IMG/VR virus record: IMGVR_UViG_3300035666_000043
Coordinates: 1-44,687 of that record
DNA from: a virus
DNA: 44,687 bases
Strand: one strand, 5' to 3'
In this document: positions 650 through 41,641 of the stretch, piece by piece
How positions within the stretch are numbered: position 1 is the stretch's first letter
How the letters are laid out: each line of letters begins with the position of its first letter
The notes under the pieces: generated by a model
Databases searched by the model: none
What the model saw: only the letters and a program-made list of their open reading frames with translations
Told to the model about the DNA's origin: nothing
Made by a program: the position numbers and the translations under genes

Positions 650-665
650 TCTGCACTCACGCAGA
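650..665. promoter_or_regulatory. Palindrome TCTGCA-CTCA-CGCAGA (one mismatch)
   Basis: A variant of the 16-bp palindrome found at many gene starts in this genome, with C instead of T at the seventh base from the right. It lies 74 bases before the major capsid start, where T7 has its phi10 promoter. It could be a promoter part, an operator or an mRNA hairpin. Confidence 0.45.
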
Positions 666-738
666 GCACAGGCCGGCTTAGGCCGACACCCTGATCGCAA
701 ACCCGTCGAGATAGCAGAGGCTCACCGCACACATTGCA

Positions 739-1770
739 GTGACCGCTATTTCCCTGTCCCGCCTTGGGCAAATCAAAGGCACGGGCAGCAACTTTGATCT
801 TTTCCTCAAACTTGGGATGTCGGAGGTGCTAACCGCCTTCGACCGCAAAACCGTATTCACTGGTCGAGTCAAGGAGCGCTCCATCCGGGGCGGCCACAGC
901 GCTCGATTCAAGGTGACCGGCCGGCGCACCGCTGGGTATCACACCCCGGGCACGCCGATCACCAACGTTCCCACCGACGCCAACAACCCCAACCCCAGCA
1001 ACGCGCCTTCGGATCGCAACGAGGAGGTCATCAATCTCGATGGCCTGCTGGTGGCGCCCGATACGGTCTATGACCTTGACGACCTCATGGAGGACGTTCA
1101 ATACCGTCAGGACATGATGCACCAGCTGGGTGAGGCCCTGGCCCGCGAGAAGGATGCTCGCGTTGCGCGGGTGCTCTATGCCGCGGCCAAGCGCAGCACC
1201 GAGCCGCTGAGCAAGACCAGCAACGCCGGCCGCACCGGCACCGCCCGGACCCTCAGCGCCGGCTATGCCAATGCCTCGAAGCAGGCCAAGGGCGACGAGC
1301 TCGCTTCTGTGATTGGTGACATCAAAGTCGCCATGCAGAAGAAGGACGTGCCTGTTGATGACATGGTGGTGGTCGTCCCCCCGGACGAGTACGACTTCCT
1401 CAACGAAGGCAGCAAGGTGATCAACGCCGACTTCAACCAGGGTTCGGCCAACGGCACCTATGGCGGCGGCACCATCGCCCGGGTGAAGGGGCTTCCCGTT
1501 ATGTGGAGCAACCACGTCACTCAGGCGGCCTACACCAACACGACCTTCGATCGCAACACGGCCTATCAGCAGAACCTGAGCAAGTGCCGCGCCTTGATCT
1601 TCCACAAGGACGCGATGGGTGTACTGACCCTGCGCCGGCCCCAGCTGCAGATGACCGCCCCCGGCGGCGACTACAACGTGGTCTATCAATCGCAGCTGTT
1701 TGTTGCGCGGATGGCCATCGGCATGGGGATTCTCCGTGCTGAATGTGCCGCCGTGATCGAAGTGCCTTAG
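739..1770 (+). CDS. Major capsid protein (gp10-like)
   Basis: A protein of 343 residues, close to T7 gp10A (345), that forms the icosahedral shell. The N-terminal part (a G-T-G-S-N-F segment, then EVLTAF-RKT) and the GHSARF region match the HK97-fold capsid proteins of T7-like cyanophages. It follows the scaffold gene and is followed by a strong intrinsic terminator, as in T7. The GTG start at 739 is chosen because the first residues align with the usual capsid N-terminus; no clear ribosome site precedes it. A palindrome at 650-665 lies in the leader. Confidence 0.9.
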   Translation: MTAISLSRLGQIKGTGSNFDLFLKLGMSEVLTAFDRKTVFTGRVKERSIRGGHSARFKVTGRRTAGYHTPGTPITNVPTDANNPNPSNAPSDRNEEVINLDGLLVAPDTVYDLDDLMEDVQYRQDMMHQLGEALAREKDARVARVLYAAAKRSTEPLSKTSNAGRTGTARTLSAGYANASKQAKGDELASVIGDIKVAMQKKDVPVDDMVVVVPPDEYDFLNEGSKVINADFNQGSANGTYGGGTIARVKGLPVMWSNHVTQAAYTNTTFDRNTAYQQNLSKCRALIFHKDAMGVLTLRRPQLQMTAPGGDYNVVYQSQLFVARMAIGMGILRAECAAVIEVP

Positions 1771-1795
1771 GCTTCGCCCGGGAACGACGGAGTGC

Positions 1796-1822
1796 GCCCC
1801 ACTGTCACAGGTGGGGCTTTTT
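1796..1822 (+). terminator. Intrinsic terminator after the capsid gene
   Basis: Perfect 7-bp stem GCCCCAC/GTGGGGC (1796-1802 with 1811-1817), an 8-base loop, then TTTTT at 1818-1822. It corresponds in position to T7 T-phi, which follows gene 10 and lowers transcription of downstream tail genes. Confidence 0.85.
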
Positions 1823-1863
1823 CATGCCTGCCGATAGCATTGGTCCGCACCGCCGCAGAGCAG

Positions 1864-2505: not shown

Positions 2506-5024
2506 GCCTGGTCAGCTACATGGTGCCAAATCTGATCCAGGGGATCAGCCAGCAGCCGGATGCGTTGCGCGACCCCACCCAGGGGGAGATCCAGATCAAC
2601 GCCATGAGCTCCCTGGTGGATGGCCTGCGCAAACGCGAGGGCACCGAGGTGATCGCCAAGGTCTCCAACGGCCCACTGGGCAACTGCATGTTGCACCAGA
2701 TCCAGCGGGATGCCGGCGAGCAGTATCTGGTGGTGATCGCCAGGACATCCATCAAGGTGTTCGAGCTGCTCACCGGGGAGGAGCGGACCGTCACCGCACC
2801 CAACGGGTTCAGCTACCTGGCCGGCGGCGCCGATGCCCGGGTGGACCTGCGTGCGGCGACGATCGCCGATTACACCTTCATCTCCAACACCAAGCGGCTG
2901 CCAGCAATGAAGGCGGCGACCGCTCCGGCCGTTGCCCGCCCATCGCTGCATGAATGCCTGGTGTGGGTGAAGGCCGCCAACTACGGGCAGGCCTACACCG
3001 TCAACGTCAACGGCACCACGGCCACCGTCGAGACGGCCATCCAGCCCGTGGAGGTCAACGGCAGCACCATCACCGAGAACCGGATCTCTGCGGCCGAGAT
3101 CGCCACCCAGCTGCGCACTGCTCTGCTGAGCGTCTCCGGTGTGACGATCGCCAGGCGCGGGTCGGTGCTGTGGCTGCAAAGCGCCAGTCCGATTGCGATC
3201 GAGGCGACTGATGCCCGGGCGAACGCCGACATCACCGCGATCACCAACTCAGTGCAGAGCTTTGCCGAGCTGCCAACCATGGCCCCCAGGGGCTATCAGG
3301 TGAAGATCGACGGGGATCCCGGCAACCAGTTCGACAACTACTACGTGGAGTTCGTGCCCAGGCAGGGCGCTGGCGGGTTCGGCGAAGGGGCCTGGGAGGA
3401 GACGGTCGCGCCGGGCCTGCCGTACCAGATCGACCCGGCCACCATGCCCCAGGTGCTGGTGCGGCTGCCCAACCAGTCGTTCTGGTTTGGCCCGGCCGAT
3501 GGGCAGACGGTCAGCGGGGTGAAGATCCCCAAGTGGGGCGAGCGCACGGCCGGCGATCTGGAGACATCGCCAGACCCGTCATTCATCGGCCACCCCATTC
3601 AGGACGTGTTCGTGTTCAAGAACCGGATGGGATTCTTGGCGGACGAGAACATCATCCTTAGCAGAACACGGGACTTCTTTGAGTTCTTCCCAGAGACTGC
3701 GACCGCTGTCCTCGATTCCGATCCGATTGATCTGACGGCAACCAACCCACGGGTTGCGCTGTTGCGTTATGCGATCCCCTACCAAGATGAGCTGATCGTC
3801 TTTGCTGATCAGATCCAGTTTCGGTTTAACTCGTCCGGCGCCCCGCTCACCCCATCAACCGGGCAGATCACGCTGCTCACCCAGTACGACATCGACCCGA
3901 ACGTCCGCCCAATCCAAGTGGCTGGCTCGATTGTGTTCTGCCAGGCCGACGGCGAGTGGTCGCAGTTTCAGGAGTTCAGCATTCGCGGTGTTGGCACAAC
4001 ACTGGTGGCCGACGCTTCTGATCTCACCACGTATGTGAGCAGCTACATCCCCAGCCAGGTCACCAAGCTGGCATCGAACGACATCGGCTATTCGTGGTTT
4101 GCGATCTCAGAAAAGCCCGGCTATCGCAGCCGCATCTATGTATTCAAATACTTCAACCGCAGCACGGCAGAGGGCCTGCGGCGAGAGCAGAGCAGCTGGA
4201 GCTACTGGGATCTGAACGGTGCCACCAGGATCCTGCAGATCGTTTGTGTGCAGGAGGTTCTCTACATCCTTGCGCAATACGAAAGCAGCGTGTGGCTGGA
4301 GCGGATGTCGGTGACCGACAAGGCCAGCGAGCCAGGCGGCCGGCCCAGGCCACTGCTCGATCGGCTGATCAGCACCACCAACGACACGCCCGCCCTGCTG
4401 CGGGTGGAGGAGGGCACCTACGACAGGGACACGGACACCACTGCTTGGCAGCTGCCGTTCCCCGTCGAGGCCCGGACCCTGGCGGTGAAAACCCGGGTGT
4501 CCAGCCAGGGCGGCTCTGAGGTTGAGCGTGGCGGCGGGACGGTGCTGGGCGAGACCAGCAGCGGCCGGCGCATCACCGCCAGAGGGGACTGGCGCGGCAA
4601 GGCCATCTACTTCGGCGAGGCCTACCAGTTCCTCTACCGCTTCACCCGCTTCAAGCTCTACCGGGACGCAGGCGACGGCCGGGTGCCGGGGAATGTTGGC
4701 CGGGTGCAGATCCGCCATGCCCGCCTCCGCTACCACGGCAGCTTCTACTTCGAGGCCCACGTCATGGCCGAGCGCCGGGACGCCGCGGTCTACACGTACA
4801 CCGGCAAGACGCTGGATGTCCTGGGTTCGGTGGTGGGCGATGAGGTGTTCCCAGAGACCGAGCCCCGCCCCGCTCGATACCTCGATGGGGTGTTCACCAT
4901 CCCCATCCAGTCCCGGGGCGACAGCTGCATTGTCGAGCTACGCAGCGACAGCCCCGACCCGTGCCAGTTCACCACCTGCGAATGGGTGGGCCTGGCATTC
5001 AGCAAAGCGAAGGCCGTTCGATGA
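2502..5024 (+). CDS. Tail tubular protein B (gp12-like nozzle)
   Basis: 840 residues (T7 gp12 has 794). The N-terminal VSYMVPNLIQGISQQPD-type segment is diagnostic of T7-like nozzle proteins, which form the tail tip through which DNA and ejection proteins leave. It starts with GTG overlapping the upstream stop and ends in an ATGA overlap with the next gene. The rest is beta-rich, as expected for nozzle propellers. No frame breaks are seen. Confidence 0.92.
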   Translation: MSLVSYMVPNLIQGISQQPDALRDPTQGEIQINAMSSLVDGLRKREGTEVIAKVSNGPLGNCMLHQIQRDAGEQYLVVIARTSIKVFELLTGEERTVTAPNGFSYLAGGADARVDLRAATIADYTFISNTKRLPAMKAATAPAVARPSLHECLVWVKAANYGQAYTVNVNGTTATVETAIQPVEVNGSTITENRISAAEIATQLRTALLSVSGVTIARRGSVLWLQSASPIAIEATDARANADITAITNSVQSFAELPTMAPRGYQVKIDGDPGNQFDNYYVEFVPRQGAGGFGEGAWEETVAPGLPYQIDPATMPQVLVRLPNQSFWFGPADGQTVSGVKIPKWGERTAGDLETSPDPSFIGHPIQDVFVFKNRMGFLADENIILSRTRDFFEFFPETATAVLDSDPIDLTATNPRVALLRYAIPYQDELIVFADQIQFRFNSSGAPLTPSTGQITLLTQYDIDPNVRPIQVAGSIVFCQADGEWSQFQEFSIRGVGTTLVADASDLTTYVSSYIPSQVTKLASNDIGYSWFAISEKPGYRSRIYVFKYFNRSTAEGLRREQSSWSYWDLNGATRILQIVCVQEVLYILAQYESSVWLERMSVTDKASEPGGRPRPLLDRLISTTNDTPALLRVEEGTYDRDTDTTAWQLPFPVEARTLAVKTRVSSQGGSEVERGGGTVLGETSSGRRITARGDWRGKAIYFGEAYQFLYRFTRFKLYRDAGDGRVPGNVGRVQIRHARLRYHGSFYFEAHVMAERRDAAVYTYTGKTLDVLGSVVGDEVFPETEPRPARYLDGVFTIPIQSRGDSCIVELRSDSPDPCQFTTCEWVGLAFSKAKAVR

Positions 5025-9215: not shown

Positions 9216-9218
9216 CCC

Positions 9219-28992: not shown

Positions 28993-29250
28993 CACACCAC
29001 AACCACCCGACCAATGCCCACCACCACAACCGCACCGGCACTGCAGCCGGCGGCAGGTGAGCTGGAGCAGCTGTTGACCCACTGCCTGTCCGCTGCACAG
29101 CTGCACACCGGCTGCCACCGCACCATCACCGACCACGCACTCAGCTACTGGCTGCTGCGGCCCCTGGAGGCTGCTCAGCTGCTCACCGACTACCACCACG
29201 TCAGCCCGGCCCATCGAGGCGTGCTGCTGATCCGCTGGGGCCGGTCGTGA
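28987..29250 (+). CDS. Hypothetical early protein
   Basis: 87 residues. A Thr/Pro-rich start is followed by a helical region (GELEQLLTHCLSAAQL, HALSYWLLRPLEAAQLLTDYHHV) and ends in RGVLLIRWGRS. No family is recognised. It is the first gene of the plus-strand early operon, 87 bases after a sigma70-like promoter, and its stop overlaps the next GTG start. As the first gene expressed it might be a host-takeover factor, but that is only positional. An alternative start is ATG 29017. Confidence 0.5.
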   Translation: MQHTTTTRPMPTTTTAPALQPAAGELEQLLTHCLSAAQLHTGCHRTITDHALSYWLLRPLEAAQLLTDYHHVSPAHRGVLLIRWGRS

Positions 29251-29412: not shown

Positions 29413-29601
29413 ATGACAACCACCATCACCGCTCTGCTGATTGCTCTACTTCTGCTGCCCTTGCTGGTCCTGTTCTGGGCCACTGAGAGCAAACAGCAAC
29501 GAGCCCGCCGGATGCGGGGCTACGGGATGACACAGCAGGCAATCGCCGATCGGCTGGGCTGCAGCCGTACATCAGTGCGCCGGATGCTCGCCGCGGCCTG
29601 A
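29413..29601 (+). CDS. Membrane-anchored helix-turn-helix protein
   Basis: 62 residues. An N-terminal transmembrane helix (ALLIALLLLPLLVLFW) is followed by a basic linker and a resolvase/Hin-type helix-turn-helix (YGMTQQAIADRLGCSRTSVRRML). Such a small protein could tether phage DNA to the membrane or be a membrane-bound regulator. It follows an ACC-rich leader and its stop overlaps the ArdC-like start (TGATG). Confidence 0.6.
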   Translation: MTTTITALLIALLLLPLLVLFWATESKQQRARRMRGYGMTQQAIADRLGCSRTSVRRMLAAA

Positions 29602-31386: not shown

Positions 31387-31529
31387 GACGTTTCCTGCGC
31401 CTGATCAGGCCGCTGCGTGTGCCGCTGCTGTTCGTGGTGATCCTCGCCGGCTGGCCCGTGGTGCTGCCCCTGGCATGGCTGGCGCTGATCACCTTTCTTC
31501 TGATCTTCATGGTGAGAGGGAGACGATGA
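31383..31529 (+). CDS. Small membrane protein
   Basis: 48 residues from TTG 31383. Basic N-terminus (RRFLRLIRPLR), then two hydrophobic stretches (VPLLFVVILAGWPVVL and LAWLALITFLLIFMV) and a basic end. Both ends overlap neighbours (TTGA and ATGA), which supports it as a real coupled gene. Function unknown. Confidence 0.5.
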   Translation: MRRFLRLIRPLRVPLLFVVILAGWPVVLPLAWLALITFLLIFMVRGRR

Positions 31530-31861
31530 CCGCCACCCCTGCAGACGTGGCAGCCATGCTGCGCGGCATCAGAACGCATCATCCGTGCCTCACTGCATCA
31601 GCAGTCGAGACCCTTTTGCACATCGCATTAGGAGCGGATTGCAGCGCTGAACTATCCGAGCGGACGGGTGTTGCCCGGCAGACCATTAATCGCAACATCG
31701 TCCATCTGATCGGCCGCGGCCGGGTTGGCAAGGCCCGCATTCGCTCCAATCTGGGGTTGGTCGAACGGTCAAAACACCCTGACCGCAACGGGTTTCGGCT
31801 GCAGCTGAGCCAGAACGGCCGCGAATTGATCGTTAGTACGTTTGGATCACTTGACCTATGA
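31526..31861 (+). CDS. Winged-helix transcription regulator-like protein
   Basis: 111 residues from ATG 31526, with GAGGGAG (31516-31522) as ribosome site. TASAVETLLHIALGADCSAELSERTGVARQTINRNIVHLIGRGRV is a clear winged helix of MarR-like type, followed by a wing (NGFRLQLSQNGREL). Probably a small dimeric DNA-binding regulator. It is related in design to the next gene (32004), possibly a paralogue. Confidence 0.6.
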   Translation: MTATPADVAAMLRGIRTHHPCLTASAVETLLHIALGADCSAELSERTGVARQTINRNIVHLIGRGRVGKARIRSNLGLVERSKHPDRNGFRLQLSQNGRELIVSTFGSLDL

Positions 31862-31977
31862 GATTGCGCCTTTTGGCAACCGTTGCGATCCCTAGCACAC
31901 GCTGTTGGCGGGAGTGGTCGCTATGGCTTGAGCGTCACGGTAATCGGTATCGGTTTTCTCTTCACCGATGCGAAACT

Positions 31978-32000
31978 CCTAGGAGTAGGCGTCACCTAGG
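31978..32000. promoter_or_regulatory. CCTAGG pair upstream of winged-helix gene
   Basis: A 12-bp perfect palindrome ACTCCTAGGAGT (31975-31986) and ACCTAGGT (31994-32001) end three bases before the ATG at 32004. This fits autoregulation by the product. The leader also has direct and inverted ATCGGT/ACCGAT repeats (31942-31970). Confidence 0.6.
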
Positions 32001-32003
32001 TCC

Positions 32004-32321
32004 ATGGATCTCCCTTCACTGGCCCTGGCTTTAGGCACTTTTGCCACTCAGGACCCAACCCGTTTTCCGCTGCACCACGCCCGGCTGTTTCTTGAGGTCG
32101 CCATGCATGAGCCCTGCACCTTTGAGCACCTGGAACAGGCCCTCAACCTGACCAACTCCAGCGTCTCCAGGTCGGTTGCTGCCCTCTCTGACCGCAACCG
32201 CCACGGAGACCGGGGTTATCGGCTCCTGATCCATGAACGCGATCCCGACGAGGGGCGGCGATTCCTGGTCAGGCTCAGCCCCAAGGGCCGGCTGCTTCTG
32301 CAGCAGCTGCAGCGGATCTGA
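32004..32321 (+). CDS. MarR-like winged-helix regulator
   Basis: 105 residues. HHARLFLEVAMHEPCTFEHLEQALNLTNSSVSRSVAALSDRN gives the helices of a MarR-type winged helix, and RGYRLLIHERDPDEGRRFLVRLSPKGRLLL is the wing and following helix. It lies directly behind a pair of CCTAGG palindromes and upstream of the integrase, where a lysogeny or early-late switch protein could sit. It is a good candidate for the CCTAGG-binding factor; this is inference. Confidence 0.7.
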   Translation: MDLPSLALALGTFATQDPTRFPLHHARLFLEVAMHEPCTFEHLEQALNLTNSSVSRSVAALSDRNRHGDRGYRLLIHERDPDEGRRFLVRLSPKGRLLLQQLQRI

Positions 32322-32354: not shown

Positions 32355-33341
32355 ATGGCCGGATCAGTACGCCGCACCGCGGACGGCTGGATCGCTGATG
32401 TCTGCATCAACGGCAGTCGCCGCACCGCCAAACGCAAAACCAAGGCTGAGGCCCTCGAAGCGAAGCGCCAGTTGCTGGAGCTGCTGGTGGCACGCACCGC
32501 AGGCAAGCCCCAGGGGATCACCATCACCGACGCCCGGGAGCTCTCATTGCGGATCCGCTGGGCCGGTAAGGCCTTTCAGCGGACCGCCAGCATCTACAGC
32601 CAGGCAGCAGTGGATCACTTCGGCCCGCTGGCCCAGATGGACAGCATCACCGCCCCAGCGGTTGAAGAGTGGCGGCAGAGGCTGCTCCAGGGAGGCAACC
32701 GCCCTGGCACCGTCAATGCCAAGGTGTCGTGTCTGCGGGCGATGTTCTCCGATGCCGTGCTGCACGGCTATCTGGCAGCGATCCCGCCCCTGCCCAAGCA
32801 GCTCACCAACCGCAACGCCAAGAACCGCACGTTCTCCGATGCTGAAGCCGCGGCCTTCTGTGATCGATTCCGTAGTGCAGGCCATCCTGCCGCGGCCGAC
32901 CTTTTCGTTTTCCTGCTCGAATCCTGCTGCAGATGGGGCGAGGCAGAAAAGCTGAGGGGGGCTGATGTTGATCTTGAAAGGAGGCGGGTCAGCTTCTGGG
33001 AGACCAAGAACGGCCGGGCCAGATCCGTCCCACTCACCCGCCGGGCCCTCGATGCCCTGGCGCCCCATCTGCCAGCCGTCCCCAGTCACCGGGTCTGGCC
33101 GTACACGTACGGACAGTTCAAGTGGTTGTTTCAGGGCGCCAAGGATGCCCTGGGCATCGAAGATGAGGCGCTGACCATCCACTGCACCCGGCACACTTGC
33201 GCGAGCAGGCTGGCGACCAGTGGTGTCCCTCTTCACCAGTTGATGGCCTTCGGGGGCTGGACCAGCCTCCAGAGCGTGCAGCGTTACCTGCACCTGCACA
33301 CCGAGGCCCTGGCGTCCTGCGTGGCAGCGCTTGAGGGGTAA
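32355..33341 (+). CDS. int: Tyrosine recombinase (phage integrase)
   Basis: 328 residues. An N-terminal AP2-like arm-binding start (GSVRRTADGWIADVCINGSRRTAKRKTKAEA) and SAM-like core-binding region precede the catalytic domain with R193 (CRWGEAEKLR), K218 (TKNGRARSVPL), H276-x-x-R279 (HCTRHT), a GGW at the later His/Trp site and Y311 (QRYLHLH). All expected residues are present, so it should be active. An ACC-rich leader and AAAGGAACC precede its ATG. The hairpin- and tRNA-like region downstream is the natural candidate for attP. Integrases next to RNA polymerase genes are known from T7-like cyanophages. Confidence 0.93.
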   Translation: MAGSVRRTADGWIADVCINGSRRTAKRKTKAEALEAKRQLLELLVARTAGKPQGITITDARELSLRIRWAGKAFQRTASIYSQAAVDHFGPLAQMDSITAPAVEEWRQRLLQGGNRPGTVNAKVSCLRAMFSDAVLHGYLAAIPPLPKQLTNRNAKNRTFSDAEAAAFCDRFRSAGHPAAADLFVFLLESCCRWGEAEKLRGADVDLERRRVSFWETKNGRARSVPLTRRALDALAPHLPAVPSHRVWPYTYGQFKWLFQGAKDALGIEDEALTIHCTRHTCASRLATSGVPLHQLMAFGGWTSLQSVQRYLHLHTEALASCVAALEG

Positions 33342-33343
33342 CT

Positions 33344-33437
33344 GTGGATGCATCCACCGGAACGGCCGGGAGTGCAAACTGGGTGCGGATGGGTGCAGGA
33401 TTCTGCATCCTCCGCACCCTTCTCATTTGCTGAGAAG
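33344..33437. other. Cluster of palindromes and hairpins downstream of integrase
   Basis: GTGGATGCATCCAC (33344-33357) is a perfect 14-bp palindrome. A two-step hairpin follows: GGGTGCGGA (33381-33389) with TCCGCACCC (33411-33419), and GGGTGCA (33391-33397) with TGCATCC (33404-33410). A third, CTTCTCA/TGAGAAG, spans 33419-33437. No U-tract is seen. They could be integrase arm sites, or 3' end structures of the integrase mRNA. Confidence 0.5.
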
Positions 33438-33454
33438 CCTTGCTATGACTGGTC

Positions 33455-33515
33455 GGGGGTCTAGCTATCTGGTGAAAGCAGCGGACTCATAATCCGTTTT
33501 CCAATTCTGCACCCC
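33455..33515 (+). other. tRNA-like sequence (5' half of a CAT-anticodon tRNA), attP candidate
   Basis: GGGGGTC, TA, a D-arm (GCT/AGC around ATCTGGTGAA) and an anticodon arm GCGGA-CTCATAA-TCCGT (33481-33497) follow tRNA spacing exactly, with anticodon CAT. The T-arm is absent: only eight bases separate the variable region from ACCCC (33511-33515), which pairs with GGGGT (33456-33460). It is not a normal tRNA gene. It may be phage homology to a host tRNA used for integration, or a tRNA mimic. Confidence 0.4.
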
Positions 33516-33547
33516 TGCAAATATCTGGCCTGAACTGCAGTCAGGCC
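33507..33547. promoter_or_regulatory. Recurring palindrome plus hairpin upstream of RNA polymerase gene
   Basis: CTGCA-CCCC-TGCAA (33507-33520) is a copy of the recurring palindrome. Directly after it, GGCCTGA (33527-33533) and TCAGGCC (33541-33547) form a 7-bp hairpin with ACTGCAG as loop. A further variant, CTGCA-CCC-TGCG, overlaps the start of the RNA polymerase gene at 33614. Confidence 0.5.
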
Positions 33548-33609
33548 CTCCCTAACCAACTCTGCGGGGGTGGAGTGTAATAAGTGCATCGTGATACCGA
33601 TGCTGCACC

Positions 33610-36009
33610 TTGTCTGCACCCTGCGATTCCTACACACCACAGGAACAGCGTCAGCAGCAGATCGAAGCGGGGGCCCATGAGGCCGCTGCAAACCGCTCAC
33701 GCATCGAAAGGTCCAAGCTCAGACAGAAGGAAAGGGAGAGCGTCACCGAGTACGGACGGGCGCTGTTTCGGGCCCACGGCGAGCGTGTGGCGCTGGCCCT
33801 GGAGCACCGGCTGGGGATGGCGATCAACCGGGATGAGGTGGCTGGCCCGTATCACGCCGGCATGGGGCTGCTGTTTCAGCTGGGGGATAAGGGCCCCAGG
33901 TCGATCGCTGGTGTTGCCCTGGGGGTGGTGCTGGACCGGATCAGCAAGCCATCGAGCCACCGGGCCATGGCGTCAGCGATCGGCACCGCAATCGAGGCAG
34001 AGATCAGGGTGCTGGCCGTGGAGGATCGCGGGCAGGACCTGCTGCGCATCAGCCGCAGGCGGTTCGGCAAGCGACTGGCAGCGAAGAAGGCCCTCAAGCA
34101 GCTCCATATAGAGGTGGAGCCGTGGACCGCGACCGAGCGCTTCCACGTCGGCGCCTTCCTGCTGGACATCATCATCACGGAGACCGAGCTGCTCAGGACA
34201 AGACAGCCACCCGGTCGCCGCGGCCTGCAACTGGATCCGGCGCCGGTAATCGCGGACATCATCGCCGCCCATCCGCCCACGCCTGGCTTCTTTCGCAAGC
34301 TGCCGATGCTCACCCCACCCAGGCCCTGGGCCGGGATGACAGGCGGCGGGCACCTGAGCAACACCGAGCCACTGGTGCGCAGCCGCAAGGGGCACCCGAC
34401 CGATTACCTCACCACTGAGGCCCTCCAGCCGGCGCTGAAGGTGGTGAACACCCTGCAGGAGCAGGAGCTCCAGCTGTGCCCGTGGATGGTGGCGAACCAG
34501 CGCATCGCGTGGGATGCCAACTTGCGCGGCCTCTTCCCGATCCTGCGCGATCCGATCGAGCCACCACCCAGGCCAGTTGAGCTGGTGGGGAAGGAGGAGA
34601 TGTACCGCTGGCACCGGCTTAACGATGCCTTCCATCGTGACCGAATCGAGGGCCGGCACGCCCGCAACCAGATCGAGGCATCAATTCGCCAGGCCGAGCA
34701 GCTGGCAGGCGAGCCGATCTGGTTCAGCTGGTGCATGGACATCCGGGGCCGGGCCTACACCGCAAACCGGATGACCACCCACCAGGGCCCGGACCATGAG
34801 AAGGCTCAGATCCTGATCGCCAATGCCAAGCCCTGCGACGAGCAAGCGGCTGAGTGGATCCTCAAGGCAGGAGCGATCCACTGGGGCATCAAAGGCAGCT
34901 GGGCGGAACGGCTGCAGTTCGGCCGGGACAACTTCGAGCGGATGCTGGCGGCAGCAGAGGAACCGCTGGACCGGGTGCATCTATGGCGTGATGCCAAGGA
35001 GCCGTGGCAATTCCTGGCCTGCTGCCGGGCGCTGCAGCAGTGGGTGGAGGACCCCAACCAGCCCATCCATCAGCCGGTGCGGCTGGATCAGACCAGCTCA
35101 GGACCGGGGATCATCGGCGCCCTGCTGCGAGATCGAGGGCTGGCCCGCGCCTGCAATCTGATCGGCACCACCTGGCACGACCTCTACACCGAGCTGGCCC
35201 AGGAGGTGACGCTGCTGCTGCGCTCCGATCTGGAAGCCGGCGATGCCAAGGAGCAGCGGCTGGCGGGCTGGTGGTTGGAGCGAGGCATCAGCCGGGCTAT
35301 GGCCAAGGTGCCGGTGATGTCCACCCTGTACGGGGCGCAGCTGCTGGGAGTGACCGAGCAGCTGGTGGCCCTGCTCGATGAGGCCGAAGGGGCGGTCCCG
35401 CTTTCGGTGCTGGAGCGGGACCGGCTGATCCCGTCCCGCTACCTGGCGCGGAAGTTCTCCCTGTGCGTTGGCGCCCGGCTGGGTGGCGCCGTGGCCTTCC
35501 AGGGCTGGCTGCGGGCTCTGGTGCGCTTGACCGCCGGCAAGAACCTGCCGCTGCAGTGGACCACGCCGATGGGATTCCCGATCCGGCTGGGGCGGGAGCT
35601 CACCGCCAGCAGCGGGGTGAAGTCGTTGCTCCATGGCACCCGCCGCTGGCAGACCGTGCTCGATGCGCCACCGCCGGGGAAGCTCAGCGCCGTGGAGACC
35701 GGCCGGGCCATCACCGCCAACCTCATTCACAGCTTCGATGCCGCCTTGGTGTGGGCAATGGTCTGCGATGGTGCAGAAAAAGGGGTAACCACGCTGCCCA
35801 ACCACGACTGTTTTGCCGTGCCGCCCTGCGATGCCGAATGGCTGCACAGCTCGTTGCTCTGGCGGACTGGGGAGCTCTACCGGCCGGACTGGCTGGCTGA
35901 GATCAGGGCCGAAGTGAAGGCCAGGACTGGGCTCAAGGTGCCAGCACCGCCGATGGTGGGGACGCTGGAGGTTGGGCAGATCGGCCGCAACCCGTATTTG
36001 TTCTCCTAG
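33610..36009 (+). CDS. T7-like single-subunit DNA-dependent RNA polymerase (gp1-like)
   Basis: 799 residues (T7 RNAP has 883). Motif A is VRLDQTSSG with D493; motif B is RAMAKVPVMSTLYG with K566 and Y574; motif C is HDCF with H732 and D733. These correspond to T7 D537, K631, Y639 and D812, so the catalytic set is complete. It should transcribe the middle and late genes. TTG 33610 is the first start after an in-frame stop and no clear ribosome site is seen, suggesting weak translation. Its gene follows the integrase and candidate attP. Confidence 0.95.
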   Translation: MSAPCDSYTPQEQRQQQIEAGAHEAAANRSRIERSKLRQKERESVTEYGRALFRAHGERVALALEHRLGMAINRDEVAGPYHAGMGLLFQLGDKGPRSIAGVALGVVLDRISKPSSHRAMASAIGTAIEAEIRVLAVEDRGQDLLRISRRRFGKRLAAKKALKQLHIEVEPWTATERFHVGAFLLDIIITETELLRTRQPPGRRGLQLDPAPVIADIIAAHPPTPGFFRKLPMLTPPRPWAGMTGGGHLSNTEPLVRSRKGHPTDYLTTEALQPALKVVNTLQEQELQLCPWMVANQRIAWDANLRGLFPILRDPIEPPPRPVELVGKEEMYRWHRLNDAFHRDRIEGRHARNQIEASIRQAEQLAGEPIWFSWCMDIRGRAYTANRMTTHQGPDHEKAQILIANAKPCDEQAAEWILKAGAIHWGIKGSWAERLQFGRDNFERMLAAAEEPLDRVHLWRDAKEPWQFLACCRALQQWVEDPNQPIHQPVRLDQTSSGPGIIGALLRDRGLARACNLIGTTWHDLYTELAQEVTLLLRSDLEAGDAKEQRLAGWWLERGISRAMAKVPVMSTLYGAQLLGVTEQLVALLDEAEGAVPLSVLERDRLIPSRYLARKFSLCVGARLGGAVAFQGWLRALVRLTAGKNLPLQWTTPMGFPIRLGRELTASSGVKSLLHGTRRWQTVLDAPPPGKLSAVETGRAITANLIHSFDAALVWAMVCDGAEKGVTTLPNHDCFAVPPCDAEWLHSSLLWRTGELYRPDWLAEIRAEVKARTGLKVPAPPMVGTLEVGQIGRNPYLFS

Positions 36010-36034
36010 GAGTATTGCCTAGGTGGCTCCTAGG
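36005..36034. promoter_or_regulatory. Triple CCTAGG cluster upstream of SSB gene
   Basis: CCTAGG at 36005, 36018 and 36029, beginning over the RNA polymerase stop codon. The last copy reads CCTAGGTGCCATG, almost the same as CCTAGGTCCATG before the 32004 gene. Confidence 0.55.
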
Positions 36035-36055
36035 TGCCATGATGCGGCAGCAACT

Positions 36056-36069
36056 CTGCATAGATGCAG
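36056..36069. promoter_or_regulatory. Palindrome CTGCA-TAGA-TGCAG before SSB
   Basis: A copy of the recurring palindrome, 6 bases before ATG 36075. T7 has promoter phi2.5 just before its SSB gene. Confidence 0.5.
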
Positions 36070-36074
36070 CACAA

Positions 36075-36695
36075 ATGGCGCGGGAAACGATGGTCGCCCC
36101 CATGGGTGATCTCATGTGGGCGAAGGTCTTGACTCCTGGCATCCAGAACGCTGGGAAGGAGGACGAGAAGGAGGCTTACAGCGTCGAGCTGTTAATGCCG
36201 AAGGGCGATCCTGAGGCCGAAGCATTCGTTAAGAGGCTGAAGTTGTTGTTCGTAGCTGAACACGGCAACACATCGCGCCCTGGCCAGAACGGGCTTCCCT
36301 TTAAGACTTACCGCGACGACAAGGGCGACGAAACCGACCTCTGGAAGTTCAGCTTCAACAGAAAGACTGCGACCTGCAAAGGCACGCCGCTGCCGCCGCC
36401 CGTGGTGCAGGACGCCAAAGGCAAGCCGTGGCCAGTGGACACCCTGATTGGCAACGGAAGCACCGGCAAGATCGCCTTCACCCACTACGGCTGGGATAGT
36501 CCAGAAGGCGGCAAAGGCATCAGCCTGCAGCTGGAGGCTGTGCGAGTGATCAGCTTCCAGCCCTATGTCCCGCCCGACCACGCCGCGGCCTTCGGTGATG
36601 CCGAAGAGGGCTTCTCTCTGCCCGAGCAGAAGGCCGAAGAGGGCGACCCGTTTGGCTTTGGGGGTGACCCGAGCGACGACTCCATTCCCTTCTGA
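36075..36695 (+). CDS. Single-stranded DNA-binding protein (gp2.5-like)
   Basis: 206 residues from ATG 36075; ATG 36090 and ATG 36039 are alternatives. The core (MWAKVLTPG, EAYSVELLMPKGDPEAEAFVKRL, KIAFTHYGWDSPEGGKGISLQLEAVRVISF) fits the OB-fold phage SSB group. The C-terminus is acidic and ends DDSIPF, like the DDDIPF tip of bacterial SSB that docks host replication and repair proteins. It follows the RNA polymerase gene behind two kinds of regulatory palindrome and overlaps the resolvase start (TGATG). Confidence 0.75.
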   Translation: MARETMVAPMGDLMWAKVLTPGIQNAGKEDEKEAYSVELLMPKGDPEAEAFVKRLKLLFVAEHGNTSRPGQNGLPFKTYRDDKGDETDLWKFSFNRKTATCKGTPLPPPVVQDAKGKPWPVDTLIGNGSTGKIAFTHYGWDSPEGGKGISLQLEAVRVISFQPYVPPDHAAAFGDAEEGFSLPEQKAEEGDPFGFGGDPSDDSIPF

Positions 36696-37084
36696 TGAGC
36701 ACACGATCAGCCGACTTCGAGCTGCCGCTGCCATTGCAGCCCAAGGAGCGACCGCGCTTCTCCGGCCATGCGTACAACTCCAAGAAGTACGCCGACTGGA
36801 TGGAGCAATGCCGGGCCATTCTCGGCGAGTGGTGGACAGTCCCGCCACTGCAGAAGGGTCAGCTGGTCGCTGTTTACTTCCTCTTCCGGGGGCCAGGGTA
36901 CAGCGATCTGGACAACTTGTGCGGGGCTGTGATGGATGCGGGCAACGGCATCCTCTGGACTGATGACCGGGTAACGGTTATCAGGCGAATTGATGCTCAA
37001 TGGGAGCAGGCTCCCATAAAGAAGCAATCCATTCTGTTGAAGGTTATTTGGGATGAGCAACCACAAGTATCCACCGCTAAGTGA
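36695..37084 (+). CDS. RusA-like Holliday junction resolvase
   Basis: 129 residues (E. coli RusA has 120). PLQPKERPRF near the N-terminus and YSDLDNLCGAVMDAGNGILWTDDRVTVI carry the RusA signature: D71, D73 and D90/D91 as metal ligands and N74. It should cut branched DNA from recombination or before packaging, the task of gp3 endonuclease I in T7. The start overlaps the SSB stop, and the end overlaps the next gene by 32 bases. Confidence 0.88.
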   Translation: MSTRSADFELPLPLQPKERPRFSGHAYNSKKYADWMEQCRAILGEWWTVPPLQKGQLVAVYFLFRGPGYSDLDNLCGAVMDAGNGILWTDDRVTVIRRIDAQWEQAPIKKQSILLKVIWDEQPQVSTAK

Positions 37085-37235
37085 GCAGATGTGCGGCAAC
37101 TGCCGCTATCACAAGTACTTGAAGTGCCGCCGTTACGCGCCCCGCCCCGCAGGGATCACTGAGGAGGCTTGCTGGCCTGTTACGGACAAGAGCCAGTGGT
37201 GCGGCGAGTGGGCCCCCAGGGAGGCAAGCGAATGA
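37053..37235 (+). CDS. Small cysteine-rich (zinc-binding-like) protein
   Basis: 60 residues with CGNC (14-17) and further Cys at 25, 40 and 50, a pattern suited to one zinc ion or knuckle. Small proteins of this type are common in phage replication regions; their function is not known. It overlaps RusA by 32 bases and the next gene by four (ATGA). Confidence 0.55.
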   Translation: MSNHKYPPLSEQMCGNCRYHKYLKCRRYAPRPAGITEEACWPVTDKSQWCGEWAPREASE

Positions 37236-37789
37236 AGTGCAAGCACTGCGGCCACCATCACACCATTGTCTGCGATGTGGACAAAAAAGAGGAGGGGATC
37301 CTGCGCTATCGCCGCTGTCTTTGCTGCAGCCAGCGGTTCACCACCATGGAGCGGGTGAGCGACTACAGCCATGCCCAGGGCGGCTATGTAGACATCGAGC
37401 CTGCGGCACAAGAGCAGGAGCCGGTGCCAGCGCCGGCCAAAGCCACCCGCATCAAGCGGTTCATCCCGGACGAGGTGCCCGACGAGTTCGGTGTCACCGA
37501 CGAGGCAGCCCCGCTGCTGCTGCAGTGGTGGAGCGAGAGCCGCCGCAGCAAGCACGCCAGCAAGGCCACATGGACCGAAGCTGCCTGGCTCTCCAGCGTC
37601 AAGCGGGTGGGCAAGCTGCCCCCGGCCCGCCAGCTGGCCCTCTGCTCTGCAGGGGTGGAGAACGGCTGGATGGCGCTCAAGGAGGAGTACCTGGGCAAGG
37701 CACCCATGGAGCTCTCAGTGGTCGGCCGCCGGCCCATGCCGAAGGATCCGGCCATGCTCGCCGCGCTGGAGGAGCCATGGCCGGCCTGA
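37232..37789 (+). CDS. Protein with NrdR-type zinc ribbon
   Basis: 185 residues. Residues 1-42 (C3, C6, C29, C32 and RYRRCLCCSQRFTTMERV) closely match the zinc ribbon of NrdR, the ribonucleotide reductase repressor, but the ATP-cone that should follow is missing. Instead a Pro/Ala linker leads to a helical region (LLLQWWSESRRSKHASKATWTEAAWLSSVKRV). It is therefore not NrdR; a DNA-binding role is likely. The start is fixed by an ATGA overlap. Confidence 0.65.
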   Translation: MKCKHCGHHHTIVCDVDKKEEGILRYRRCLCCSQRFTTMERVSDYSHAQGGYVDIEPAAQEQEPVPAPAKATRIKRFIPDEVPDEFGVTDEAAPLLLQWWSESRRSKHASKATWTEAAWLSSVKRVGKLPPARQLALCSAGVENGWMALKEEYLGKAPMELSVVGRRPMPKDPAMLAALEEPWPA

Positions 37790-38301
37790 CACCCGAGACC
37801 TTTATGGCAGTGGCTGAAATGGTGGCCGGTCACCTGCGGCTGAAGGAGGCTGACCGCTGGTCACCCCACGTCTGCCGCCTCAAGCTGCACAGCTTCACCG
37901 CTGAGTTCCCAGAGGTGAACGATCCACAGCTGATGTGGGCGGCAGAGAAGTGGATTCAAGGCACCGATCCGCAGGCCTTCCATCGCTTCCCGGTGTGGGC
38001 TGAGCTGATGGCGCCGCTGTACCGGACAGAGGGCGGGCTGGCGAATCGCAGTTGGGGGCCAAAGGAGGAGCTGCCGAAGTTCGTGCAGTTCAAGCCGGCC
38101 CAGCTGGCACTGATGCCCCAGCAGCCCAGGTCCATCCACGCCGCGCCTGATCCGGCCAACACCGGGGCCTATGCACTGGTGCAGAGCAGTCAGCGGCCGG
38201 CGCTGCCACCTGCTGACGAGGCCCAGGGCCTCACCGATGCGCAGTGGCAGCTCTACCTGGAGCGCATCAGCCGCGCACAGGAAGCGGAGCCGGCGCCATG
38301 A
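37777..38301 (+). CDS. Hypothetical replication-region protein
   Basis: 174 residues from ATG 37777, with GGAGGAG (37768-37774) as ribosome site. Aromatic, helical N-terminal region (FTAEFPEVNDPQLMWAAEKWIQG, FHRFPVWAELMAPLY) and a Pro-rich tail. The design recalls proteins encoded beside phage replication loaders, but no motif proves it. It starts inside the end of the zinc-ribbon gene. Confidence 0.6.
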   Translation: MAGLTPETFMAVAEMVAGHLRLKEADRWSPHVCRLKLHSFTAEFPEVNDPQLMWAAEKWIQGTDPQAFHRFPVWAELMAPLYRTEGGLANRSWGPKEELPKFVQFKPAQLALMPQQPRSIHAAPDPANTGAYALVQSSQRPALPPADEAQGLTDAQWQLYLERISRAQEAEPAP

Positions 38302-38516
38302 ACAAGCTGATCGACAGCACTGCACTGCAAGAGATCCTCGAAAAGGGCCTGCTGCAGGGCTATTGGTCGATCGACCAGTTCAACCGCACCAGCAAGAAAG
38401 GGGAGCCAGTGCTGCCCACGCCGGGCTTCCTTTCGGAACACCCGCAGTTCTTTGACAAATCCCATCGCGATCTGGCGGCTTACGACCAGGGCGCGGGAAA
38501 GAGGGATTGGTTTTGA
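38298..38516 (+). CDS. Hypothetical small protein
   Basis: 72 residues; ATGA overlap with the upstream gene sets the start. It contains QGYWSIDQFNRTSKKGEPV and ends AGKRDWF. No family is recognised. Confidence 0.55.
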   Translation: MNKLIDSTALQEILEKGLLQGYWSIDQFNRTSKKGEPVLPTPGFLSEHPQFFDKSHRDLAAYDQGAGKRDWF

Positions 38517-38540
38517 TTGCACCACTACAGGAGGCCACCA

Positions 38541-38978
38541 ATGACTAGCCACGAAAATCTGCTTGCCCAGATCGATACATTGCTTGACGGCATTGATCGC
38601 GATGAATGCCATCCTGATGGCGGATGGTGGCAAACCAGCGACGGCTCCAAGTTTGGCCGCATCAAGCTGCGGGAATTGAAGGAATTGATTTCTACCAGCC
38701 TTCCGGCTGCCCGGGCCGAGCCGGAGGGGGTGACGGATAAAGAAAAGTGGTATCCCGGCTTTGCTGACTGGCTGGAGCGGGAAATGCCAGAGGGCGCGGT
38801 GATAGGCGATCCGTTGTGGTGGGCTTCAAAGATTGCTGACTATCTGCAACGCTTCGCCCGCCCCACCATCGAGCCGGTGCCCTCACCAGAAATAGTTGAG
38901 ATGGTCAACAAGCTGCATCAAATCAATAACCCCACCACGCACTGCCGGTGCCCGGTGCCCGGTGCGGAGGTCGAGTAA
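38541..38978 (+). CDS. Hypothetical protein
   Basis: 145 residues from ATG 38541, with AGGAGG (38529-38534) as ribosome site. A helical N-terminus (ENLLAQIDTLLDGIDRDE) precedes a mixed middle with several Trp and a CRC-containing end. Less GC-rich than its neighbours. Family not recognised. Confidence 0.55.
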   Translation: MTSHENLLAQIDTLLDGIDRDECHPDGGWWQTSDGSKFGRIKLRELKELISTSLPAARAEPEGVTDKEKWYPGFADWLEREMPEGAVIGDPLWWASKIADYLQRFARPTIEPVPSPEIVEMVNKLHQINNPTTHCRCPVPGAEVE

Positions 38979-39157
38979 TGGCGAGGTACCGAGTCTCCGT
39001 CGATCTTGAGTACAGAGACATATCAATGATTCTCACTCACTTGTATCAGTCATCACGCGATGGCTGGTACTACGGGAATCGAACTCATTTTTGCAATCGG
39101 AGAGACAGGCTGATCGAATTACTGGAATCCAAGCTGCCCCAGGAGCCCCAACCATGA
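38978..39157 (+). CDS. Hypothetical small protein
   Basis: 59 residues, starting on the last base of the upstream TAA (TAATG). Beta/helix pattern with several Tyr (YRVSVDLEYRDISMIL); lower GC than most genes here. No family is recognised. Confidence 0.5.
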   Translation: MARYRVSVDLEYRDISMILTHLYQSSRDGWYYGNRTHFCNRRDRLIELLESKLPQEPQP

Positions 39158-39387
39158 CCACCCCAGCCTCACCCCTGTCCCCCGCCGCGCAGGCGATTCG
39201 GGATGCGTACAAATCTGGCGGCCTGGAGGCCGGGCTGATCGCTGCAGCGGATCAGGTGGTGCCCCTTGAGTTAATGCTCCCTGAACAGGCGCCCATGGAA
39301 CGTCATATTAGGCAGGATGAGCGCAGCAAAATCCGCCGCCAGCTCCTCGCCCTCGCCGCCGAGCTGCGGCAGGAGGGGCAGGCATGA
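39154..39387 (+). CDS. Hypothetical small helical protein
   Basis: 77 residues from ATG 39154 (ATGA overlap). Helical, ending LALAAELRQEGQA. The last 33 bases are copied almost exactly at 39661-39693, suggesting a past duplication or module insertion. Function unknown. Confidence 0.5.
   Translation: MTTPASPLSPAAQAIRDAYKSGGLEAGLIAAADQVVPLELMLPEQAPMERHIRQDERSKIRRQLLALAAELRQEGQA
39355..39387 (+). repeat. Direct repeat, copy 1
   Basis: 33 bases that differ at two positions from 39661-39693. Both copies encode AAELRQEGQA and a stop codon that overlaps the next start. Confidence 0.85.
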
Positions 39388-39638
39388 ACAACTACATCCA
39401 TCTTCTTGTTTCCGTGATTCACCCTGCTTACGGCATGACGATTAGTCGTTATTGCCTAGGCATTTCACTAGATGATTCACGGATGCGAACTTTTGATATA
39501 GACCTATGGGCGGAACCTGAAATGCGTCAGCTGATCCTGTCTCTGCTATGGAAAGAGTGGCTCAGTGATGGATGCACGGTCGTCGGCTGTGAAGAGATCA
39601 GCGGTGCCGTGCAGTGGGAGGACGTTCACCGTGTCTAA
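39384..39638 (+). CDS. Hypothetical small protein between direct repeats
   Basis: 84 residues, ATGA-coupled to the previous gene. Beta-rich (NNYIHLLVSVIHPAYGMTISRYCLGISLDDS), with a Trp-containing helical end. Clearly lower GC than the surroundings. It is flanked by two 33-base direct repeats, so it may be an inserted cargo gene. It contains one isolated CCTAGG (39455). Function unknown. Confidence 0.5.
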   Translation: MNNYIHLLVSVIHPAYGMTISRYCLGISLDDSRMRTFDIDLWAEPEMRQLILSLLWKEWLSDGCTVVGCEEISGAVQWEDVHRV

Positions 39639-39693
39639 CTGGCAAATAACCCCACCCACCGCCGCCGAGCTGCGACAGGAGGGGCAGGCGTGA
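39631..39693 (+). pseudogene. Gene remnant ending in duplicated AAELRQEGQA
   Basis: A 20-codon frame from GTG 39631 whose second half repeats the C-terminus of the 39154 gene. It is probably the leftover of a duplicated or interrupted gene, kept because its stop couples to the next GTG start. Confidence 0.4.
39661..39693 (+). repeat. Direct repeat, copy 2
   Basis: Second copy of the 33-base repeat at 39355-39387, with A for G and G for A at two positions. Confidence 0.85.
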
Positions 39694-39914
39694 CCTGGCC
39701 CGTTGACTACGAAATCGGCCAGCCGGTGCGCGTCCACTTCCAAGGTGGATGGCGCAGTGGCCAGGTGGTATCCACCCGCACCCGCAGCTGCATGGTCCTG
39801 TTGGTGCGCGGCGGCAATCAGCAGACCATCAACATTCACGACCCTCGCAACATCAAGCCATGCCCAGAGAAAACGACCAGCTCGACATCGAACGATCAGC
39901 TGTCCTTCGGCTGA
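39690..39914 (+). CDS. Hypothetical SH3-like small protein
   Basis: 74 residues from GTG 39690 (GTGA overlap). The pattern IGQPVRVHFQGGWRSGQVVSTRTRSCMVLLVRGGNQQTINIHDPRNI resembles a small Tudor/KOW/SH3-like barrel. Function unknown. It overlaps the next gene by 55 bases. Confidence 0.5.
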   Translation: MTWPVDYEIGQPVRVHFQGGWRSGQVVSTRTRSCMVLLVRGGNQQTINIHDPRNIKPCPEKTTSSTSNDQLSFG

Positions 39915-40024
39915 GAGCAGACGCTGTTAAGCGTGTGCAGAAATCCCGGGAGAGCTACTCGGCTCGTTACTGGGATGGCTACCTGCGGGCTATTGACCAC
40001 ATCCTCGAAATGGAGAATGAGTAA
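39860..40024 (+). CDS. Hypothetical small basic helical protein
   Basis: 54 residues from ATG 39860, inside the end of the previous gene in another frame. One long helix is predicted (SAVLRLRADAVKRVQKSRESYSARYWDGYLRAIDHILEM). It is accepted because its stop (TAATG) couples to the next gene and its composition is protein-like. Confidence 0.45.
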   Translation: MPRENDQLDIERSAVLRLRADAVKRVQKSRESYSARYWDGYLRAIDHILEMENE

Positions 40025-40251
40025 TGGGCTGGAGTGAACCCAAGCGCTACGACTTCGAGGGGCCCATGCCCTCCATCGGCCCCGGTCTCAGCCGCCCCAA
40101 GCCCAAGGAGTCGGCCAGGCTGTACCGGCTGCGGGTCAAGTTGCCCGGCAGCCCGCAGATGATCATCACGATCCCTGCCCCGACCCGTGGGAAGGCAATC
40201 ATGTATTGCAAGAACCGTTGGCCTGGGTGTGATGCGGAGACGATGGAATGA
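40024..40251 (+). CDS. Hypothetical small protein
   Basis: 75 residues with a basic, Pro-rich start and a beta segment (LYRLRVKLPGSPQMIITIPAPTRGKAIMYCKNRWPG). This beta-then-helix end resembles small phage proteins that carry a single-domain alpha/beta fold. Family not named. Coupled at both ends. Confidence 0.5.
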   Translation: MGWSEPKRYDFEGPMPSIGPGLSRPKPKESARLYRLRVKLPGSPQMIITIPAPTRGKAIMYCKNRWPGCDAETME

Positions 40252-40637
40252 ATCGAAGCCCCGTGAATTACGACGAGCCTGCTGGCGAGTGCCGCAAGTC
40301 GGCCGAGTCTGCCATTAAGCCACGGCTTGAACTGCTGCCTAGCGCAGCGCTGGAACAGATTGCCGAAGTGTTGACCTATGGCGCCGCAAAATACGAAGCC
40401 AACAACTGGTGCCGCGGCGCTCGCTGGGGGCGATACTTTGCCGCCCTGCTTCGGCACGTCTTTGCCTGGTGGCGCGGCCAGGATCGAGATCCAGAAACTG
40501 GCATGAGCCATCTGGCCCACGCCGGCTGCTGCCTGCTGTTTTTGATGGAGTACCAGCGCAATGGGTGGGGCACAGACGATCGGTTTCATGGGCCAGACCA
40601 GGAGCCGTTCCAGAAGCTGGATGGGGCGGTCGAATGA
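40248..40637 (+). CDS. dATP/dGTP diphosphohydrolase-like protein (DUF5664/MazZ type)
   Basis: 129 residues. KPRLELLPSAALEQIAEVLTYGAAKYEANNW, then YFAALLRHVFAWWRGQDRDPETGMSHLAHAGCCLLFLMEY, is the signature of the phage nucleotide-hydrolase-like family named after dATP/dGTP diphosphohydrolases; the E-x-x-x and H-x-x-H/D residues would bind metal and substrate. It may clean or balance nucleotide pools. No purZ- or datZ-like gene is present, so a base-Z genome is not suggested. It is coupled to genes on both sides. Confidence 0.75.
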   Translation: MNRSPVNYDEPAGECRKSAESAIKPRLELLPSAALEQIAEVLTYGAAKYEANNWCRGARWGRYFAALLRHVFAWWRGQDRDPETGMSHLAHAGCCLLFLMEYQRNGWGTDDRFHGPDQEPFQKLDGAVE

Positions 40638-40879
40638 AAGCCGTCACGCTTGACCTGGGTGGCGGCATGACAGCCAGCTGCCATCGCGGCGGGCCAACGG
40701 GCCGCTACTTCGTGGGATACCGCAAAGGCACCAGCGCACTGTTCCCCGACGCGCAACAGCTGCGCCGGTTTCTTGCGCTGCCGCCCGGTACGCCCAGCCG
40801 CCAATCCTTTGATGCGTGGGCCGAGGCCCTCGATTCACCACCCGCCACCGAGCCGCCAGCAAATGAAAGCCCTGATTGA
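40634..40879 (+). CDS. Hypothetical small protein
   Basis: 81 residues from ATG 40634 (ATGA overlap). A short beta start (KAVTLDLGGGMTASCHR) and Pro-rich acidic end. It overlaps the exonuclease gene by 17 bases. No family is recognised. Confidence 0.5.
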   Translation: MKAVTLDLGGGMTASCHRGGPTGRYFVGYRKGTSALFPDAQQLRRFLALPPGTPSRQSFDAWAEALDSPPATEPPANESPD

Positions 40880-41621
40880 CACCGAGGTCTATTTATTCCG
40901 CGCCGCTGCAGCGTGCGAGATGGAAGCGGAGTGGGCGCCTGATGACTGGACCTACATCTGCCGTCATGGCGATGCGCAGGCCCTGTTTCAGGACTCGATT
41001 GCCGAGATCCTCGACACCCTCCAGGGCCTTCAGCCGGTGCTGGTGTTCTCTGCTGGCGTGTCGTTCCGCTATGGCGTGTGGCCCACCTACAAGGCCAACC
41101 GCAAAAAGACCCGCAAGCCGGCTGGCTACAGCAAGTTGCGCGAGTGGGTCCGCAAGGCCGCCCCGGCCCGTGGGTGGGAGGTGGTCGAGCTCCCCGACGT
41201 GGAAGGTGACGACGTGCTGGGCATCCTCTACGAGGAAGGCGACGTGATCTGCTCTATCGACAAGGACATGCTCACCATCCCCGGCTACCACCTGCGCAAC
41301 GGGGAGATTATCGAGGTGTCCAGGGCCCAGGCCGACCGCAACTTCTACACCCAGGTGCTGGTTGGCGATGCCACCGACAACTACCCCGGCTGCCCTGGCT
41401 ATGGGCCGGTCACGGCTGAAAAGAAGCTCGCCGGGTGGGAGAAAGAGGTTGATCTGTGGCGGGAAGTGGTGAACGCCTACGTGCTCAAGGGGCCATTCCC
41501 TGACCGCGAGAGAGCTGAGCGCCACGCCATCACCCAGGCCCGCTGCGCACGCATCCTCCGCTCCGGTGAATACGACCTGGCGACCAACACTGTCCGGCTG
41601 TGGGAGCCCCCGGTAACCTGA
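40863..41621 (+). CDS. 5'-3' exonuclease (gp6-like, FEN family)
   Basis: 252 residues (T7 gp6 has 300). The N-terminus MKALIDTEVYLFRAA carries the first metal Asp; DVEGDDVLG and ICSIDKDMLTI give the middle acidic cluster; VGDATDNYPGCPGYGPVTAEK is the Asp pair plus H3TH DNA-binding motif. In T7-like phages this enzyme removes RNA primers, degrades host DNA and acts in recombination. In T7 it follows the DNA polymerase gene; here no polymerase gene is present. Confidence 0.92.
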   Translation: MKALIDTEVYLFRAAAACEMEAEWAPDDWTYICRHGDAQALFQDSIAEILDTLQGLQPVLVFSAGVSFRYGVWPTYKANRKKTRKPAGYSKLREWVRKAAPARGWEVVELPDVEGDDVLGILYEEGDVICSIDKDMLTIPGYHLRNGEIIEVSRAQADRNFYTQVLVGDATDNYPGCPGYGPVTAEKKLAGWEKEVDLWREVVNAYVLKGPFPDRERAERHAITQARCARILRSGEYDLATNTVRLWEPPVT

Positions 41622-41627
41622 GGTTGT

Positions 41628-41641
41628 CTGCACGGATGCAG
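41628..41641. promoter_or_regulatory. Palindrome CTGCA-CGGA-TGCAG at gene start
   Basis: A copy of the recurring palindrome; its last base is the G of the GTG start at 41641. It sits between the replication block and the virion block, where a late promoter is expected. Confidence 0.5.

Follow-up and report, generated by a model that had tools for sequence, protein, structure and literature searches.

A palindrome at the module starts of a T7-like virus

We report a recurrent palindrome, TCTGCA-N4-TGCAGA, in the genome of a putatively temperate T7-like virus whose host would be a freshwater Synechococcus/Cyanobium (IMG/VR record IMGVR_UViG_3300035666_000043; the window hereafter is the whole stretch analyzed, 44,687 bases, which is the entire virus record). 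About eleven copies are dispersed over the genome at the starts of gene modules, and comparison of sequences suggests, with a probability that we put at roughly 0.72, that they are operators of a phage-encoded MarR-type repressor silencing the lytic genome in the prophage. The window encodes T7-like head, tail and portal proteins, SSB, an exonuclease, a single-subunit RNA polymerase (RNAP) and a tyrosine integrase, and the 127-base pair (bp) repeat at its ends indicates that the record is probably a complete circular map. The closest cultured relative is Synechococcus phage S-SRP02 (46% identity in RNAP), and six environmental relatives have RNAP identities of 82-84%. A direct megablast of window positions 33000-44000 against phage records gave no match.

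An earlier note on this DNA had listed nine copies of the palindrome, and all nine are present, at positions correct to within one base. Two further sites, at 1844 and 33561, were added on the strength of their conservation. The resulting set of candidate operator sites is as follows.

650-665, + strand: TCTGCACTCACGCAGA, one mismatch, conserved; 5' of the major capsid gene (739-1770)
1844-1859, + strand: TCCGCACCGCCGCAGA, weak, two mismatches, with stronger copies there in relatives; immediately 5' of the start of tail tube A
16837-16852, + strand: exact, supported by relatives; overlaps the start of the tail fibre gene
21352-21367, + strand: CCTGCACCCCTGCAGA, one mismatch, supported by relatives; between the fibre gene and the next gene (21402-21797)
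25160-25175, no strand assigned: TCTGCACCCATGCAAC, two mismatches, supported by relatives; in the 28-bp gap that separates a leftward YkuD-like gene (24423-25148) from a rightward DNA_Packaging_2-like gene (25177-25449)
28263-28278, no strand assigned: exact; early control region, with leftward winged helix-turn-helix and TerL genes on one side and rightward early genes on the other
28978-28993, + strand: TCTGCAGCAATGCAGC, one mismatch, supported by relatives; overlaps the ATG (28987) of an early open reading frame (ORF) of 87 amino acids
33506-33521, no strand assigned: TCTGCACCCCTGCAAA (site 1), one mismatch, supported by relatives; 9 bp past the putative phage attachment site (attP) core, upstream of the RNAP gene
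33561-33576, no strand assigned: TCTGCGGGGGTGGAGT (site 2), degenerate right half, supported by conservation; 55 bp past site 1, which its strong half faces
36055-36070, + strand: TCTGCATAGATGCAGC, one mismatch, supported by relatives; 11 bp after a -10 element and 4 bp before the SSB ATG (36075)
41627-41642, + strand: TCTGCACGGATGCAGT, one mismatch, supported by relatives; behind the exonuclease gene, across the GTG start (41641) of an ORF of 55 codons

The expectation of far fewer than one chance copy was borne out: allowing at most one mismatch, the window has 12 matches against 0.17 expected, and shuffled sequences reached a maximum of two. The suggested count against the shuffled genome gave the same picture at two mismatches or fewer (19 matches; 2.8 expected). 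Among all 6-base palindromic arms with spacers of 0-16, the TCTGCA dyad is the commonest in the window (12 copies; runner-up 8), and third-order Markov sequences yield only 0-2 copies. Chance or coding origin is rejected for the intergenic sites. We accept it for the matches inside genes (16211, 23553, 35762, 37646, 38170 and 43400), which are probably coding coincidences; the sequence at 35762, for instance, codes for "VCDG", which is conserved in RNAP.

The same genes carry the palindrome in the six close relatives, a check that the earlier note had proposed. The 16-mer before the capsid gene is identical in all six, and S-SRP02 is among the other phages that have a palindrome in this position. 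Phages with an RNAP only about 40% identical keep the palindrome with changed central bases; in these distant relatives it stands ahead of the RNAP, capsid and tail tube A genes, in the gap between the RNAP and SSB genes and behind the exonuclease gene, and the fibre gene is likewise among the positions kept in relatives. A scan of LUZ100, P-SSP7 and HTVC019P for a single dominant palindrome found none at the sensitivity used.

The element is specific to phages. Across 13 genomes of the Cyanobium host group (about 35 megabases) the exact sequence occurs just four times, twice on phage contigs; around the remaining two copies no phage gene of the query set was found. Host sites can be borrowed by phage control regions, and the palindrome might in principle be the site of a host DNA-binding protein or a host-wide repeat element. 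Such an origin is, however, extremely improbable given this rarity and the fact that the half-site shifts with phage lineage (see below).

The palindrome has the form of a symmetric DNA operator

We compared the palindrome across all relatives, many of which are fragments and whose orthologous sites are not independent of each other. TGCA-N4-TGCA occurs 137 times non-redundantly, against 0-70 occurrences for other spacers. At the fifth base outside each arm, 199 of 274 cases are A or T (background 37%; p 6e-33), a preference confined to the 4-base spacer. The half-site centres are 10 bp apart, or one helical turn, and the flanks are symmetric, the A/T preference falling about 10 bp to each side of the centre. 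Within one genome, all sites have identical arms. The fixed spacer and the symmetric flanks support the palindrome being a symmetric DNA operator of about 22 bp, the form expected for a winged-helix dimer; among the options raised in the earlier note, this is the one that gained.

Another of those options was an mRNA hairpin (6-bp stem, 4-base loop) governing processing or translation. Several copies do overlap a start codon or end 0-4 bases before one, as such a hairpin near start codons would. Nevertheless, the outer bases of the two arms vary independently, being complementary at frequencies of 0.49 (0.45 expected) and 0.29 (0.27 expected), so that arm covariation is not above expectation. 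Moreover, the single fixed spacer and the flanking A/T preference suit protein-DNA contact, and some sites lie distant from start codons or between divergent genes. We regard the hairpin as very unlikely.

The palindrome could also be a promoter of the phage single-subunit RNAP, standing ahead of each module as in T7. Its placement invites this comparison, and the likeness to T7 promoter positions claimed earlier holds: the polymerase, SSB, capsid and fibre genes all have a site in front of them. Phage promoters are also found ahead of the RNAP and capsid genes of LUZ100, and a TANNNT hexamer is enriched upstream of the motif (26 of 129 sites, against 1.9 at random positions, in a count that pools all site classes, which are not independent). 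However, the distance from TANNNT to the motif ranges from 3 to 16, and the mapped LUZ100 promoters are long, asymmetric and non-palindromic. When the eleven window sites were compared, no strong one-sided or directional extension was seen, unlike in a T7-type promoter, nor was there an asymmetric conserved core in fixed orientation to the genes; one site serves divergent genes. The specificity-loop region of the polymerase is very different among phages that share the motif, whereas promoter specificity would be expected to track it. The proposed likeness to the Syn5 RNAP promoter ATTGGGCACCCGTAA (PMC3950665) does not extend beyond a short, partly dyad-symmetric sequence from a cyanopodovirus: arms and spacing differ, and the two have no asymmetric sequence in common. 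A phage promoter is therefore an unlikely reading, and it is further disfavoured by the host-type promoter that precedes the motif at SSB.

36014-36053, + strand: host-type sigma-70 promoter region of the SSB operon, TTGCCT-N17-CATGAT, identified by comparison of relatives

Of 31 phages, 24 have TTGnnn-N17-YAnnnT in the gap between the RNAP and SSB genes, where shuffles give 0.9, and the pattern is confined to a spacer of 17. The call rests on this comparison across relatives, since a consensus promoter scan of window positions 33000-44687 gave no strict sigma-70 site. The same promoter is found even in some relatives without a clear TCTGCA palindrome there. In most phages with an operator-like palindrome at this place, the palindrome starts 8-12 bases past the -10 element, and thus covers the early transcribed region. 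At the capsid, tail-tube and post-exonuclease sites a TANNNT hexamer is often found upstream; before the weak site at 1844 a TANNAT hexamer lies 3 bases upstream, and a terminator-like hairpin precedes it. This hairpin, with a T run, lies right after the capsid gene (1771-1843), placed like the T7 terminator behind gene 10.

A MarR-type protein next to the integrase is the best candidate binder

Two MarR-like genes in tandem lie directly upstream of the integrase gene, in the window and in nearly all relatives in which this stretch is available.

31526-31861, + strand: regulator A, another MarR-like protein, its gene in tandem with that of B (sequence comparison)
32004-32321, + strand: regulator B, MarR fold, 105 amino acids, proposed binder (phrog_9665, 1.9e-22)
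32355-33341, + strand: tyrosine integrase (phrog_1, 1.2e-50)
33455-33496, + strand: putative attP core, 5' half of tRNA-Met(CAT); 40 of 42 bases equal to a Cyanobium-group tRNA-Met gene (by eye), with the integrase upstream
33610-36009, + strand: single-subunit phage RNAP, proposed main target (phrog_414, 5.9e-123)

Regulator B has a MarR fold, as indicated by its phrog_9665 assignment, by matches to MarR structures in PDB and by an AlphaFold2 model with a predicted local distance difference test score (pLDDT) of 92; its Pfam MarR_2 score is slightly under the cut-off. The recognition helix, NSSVSRSVAAL, corresponds to residues 51-61, and the predicted fold also has a wing. B is 43% identical to the pMarR (gp0.7) protein of P-SSP7, which, according to PMC9692554, binds DNA at several footprints downstream of a transcription start and has predicted contacts at S62, A63, S66 and the essential R67. 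In our alignment these residues correspond to B residues 51, 52, 55 and 56.

Residue 52 changes together with the DNA. In genomes in which Ser or Gly at this position is replaced by Ala (N-A at residues 51-52, which are otherwise mostly N-S), half-sites shift from CTGC to CTAC. The numbers of CTGC pairs, mixed sites and CTAC pairs are 98, 13 and 0 in 21 genomes and 22, 23 and 15 in the 10 N-A genomes (p 8e-5; 0.013 when matched for GC content). The shift holds at the right spacing only, and neither the spacing nor the places of the sites change. It arose at least twice, in two separate lineages, since on the polymerase tree genomes L055-L057 fall inside the main group. The motif, for its part, stays the same while A varies widely in its recognition region and the polymerase in its loop region. 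On these sequence comparisons, B is most likely the protein that binds the palindrome.

We do not claim that B regulates its own gene through TCTGCA: in relatives, the apparent sites ahead of B resemble part of a small conserved ORF. This apparent ORF, carried by relatives between A and B (31862-32003 in the window), ends in ...LHRCQTPRSR... and overlaps the TCTGCA-like stretch.

A model for silencing of the prophage

We propose that a phage-encoded winged-helix dimer, most likely of B, would bind operators composed of two TCTGCA half-sites. Occupying about eleven copies, B would silence the prophage at its early, polymerase and replication modules as well as at those for capsid, tail, fibre and lysis/packaging. 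Since the operator of the SSB operon begins 8-12 bases downstream of the -10 element, bound B could keep the host polymerase from initiating there; at the other sites it would act on further promoters or as a roadblock. Judging from the map, integration at the attP core would put the host tRNA promoter directly upstream of sites 1 and 2 and of the phage RNAP gene. The pair is thus well placed against read-through, and could keep transcripts of the host tRNA-Met promoter out of the RNAP gene once the phage is integrated. Some relatives have a tRNA-Leu-like half at the place of attP, and the operator is still present.

Several points weigh against this reading. Repressing just the polymerase would be enough for lysogeny, which leaves the late-gene sites to be explained in some other way. 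No sigma-70 -35 element was found at the capsid, tail-tube and post-exonuclease sites, which leaves a host promoter there unproven. In the window, no TCTGCA site with at most two mismatches lies right at the B gene. The co-variation of B and half-site rests on few independent events, with GC content and ancestry partly confounded. Finally, the operator could be real and yet be bound by regulator A or by a leftward protein (27682-28092) rather than by B, both being conserved winged-helix proteins beside control regions. We consider this quite improbable, slightly more so than a phage promoter. Phages that share the motif differ greatly in the recognition helix of A; in S37-C6, which is fully sequenced and where TCTAC-N6-GTAGA sites persist, no copy of the leftward protein was detected, and the start of this protein sits at clusters of another motif, CCTAGG; B, in turn, adjoins the integrase almost throughout the relatives.

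Relation to known systems

How lysogeny is maintained in T7-like phages with an integrase is unsettled, and MarR-type control has been proposed in reports whose available text names no operator. For temperate T7-like phages such as LUZ100, MarR-like lysogeny regulation by repression of the RNAP gene, through sites flanking the RNAP promoter, was already proposed (PMC10134795), and the order MarR-integrase-RNAP is the same. In contrast to LUZ100, the window has a defined palindrome of 16/22 bp at nearly every module and not at the RNAP promoter alone, and two tandem MarR-like genes where LUZ100 has one. In LUZ100 itself we observed a repeated CTATCCAC at 356-606 and about 3940-4030, close to P1 and P2, which are early host promoters, and ahead of RNAP; this repeat is a possible MarR operator of that phage.

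For P-SSP7 pMarR, the tested target was the host RNase E promoter, whose expression was raised, and the available text of that report (PMC9692554) does not describe operators in the phage genome. The many dispersed repressor sites in short intergenic gaps of a temperate phage also recall the stoperators of Cluster A mycobacteriophages (L5, TipsytheTRex; PMC9283540). Stoperators, however, are asymmetric 13-mers that follow the direction of transcription, and the protein that binds them is a monomer carrying a Stoperator domain, whereas the window has about eleven copies of a palindromic 16-mer and a candidate MarR-type dimer; being symmetric, the palindrome is not a member of the stoperator kind.

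What is new here is a defined candidate operator, its genome-wide placement, the natural shift in specificity and the position behind attP. Together these supply a specific DNA site, a protein that may bind it, half-sites (CTGC and CTAC) that form a natural series of specificities, and putative targets throughout the genome, and suggest a route by which an integrated phage could keep a host tRNA promoter from activating the phage RNAP. More tentatively, and at somewhat less than even odds, these phages may form a T7-like family whose prophages are silenced by one small MarR-type protein through a genome-wide palindromic regulon, combining initiation operators with roadblocks that include the pair between the tRNA promoter and RNAP.

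A second conserved element

The leftward gene at 27682-28092 (- strand) encodes a conserved winged-helix protein with weak similarity to RepL/MarR, a possible third regulator, and its start abuts a CCTAGG cluster. Such clusters, often as ACTCCTAGGAGT or CACCTAGG, are found at 28128-28155 (the start of this gene), at 31978-32000 (just before B) and at 36005-36034 (around the -35/-10 elements of the SSB promoter), and at comparable places in S-SRP02 and relatives. CCTAGG is probably a second operator system, possibly recognised by the leftward protein. Elsewhere in the window, positions 29601-30584 encode an antirestriction-like protein (phrog_7245).

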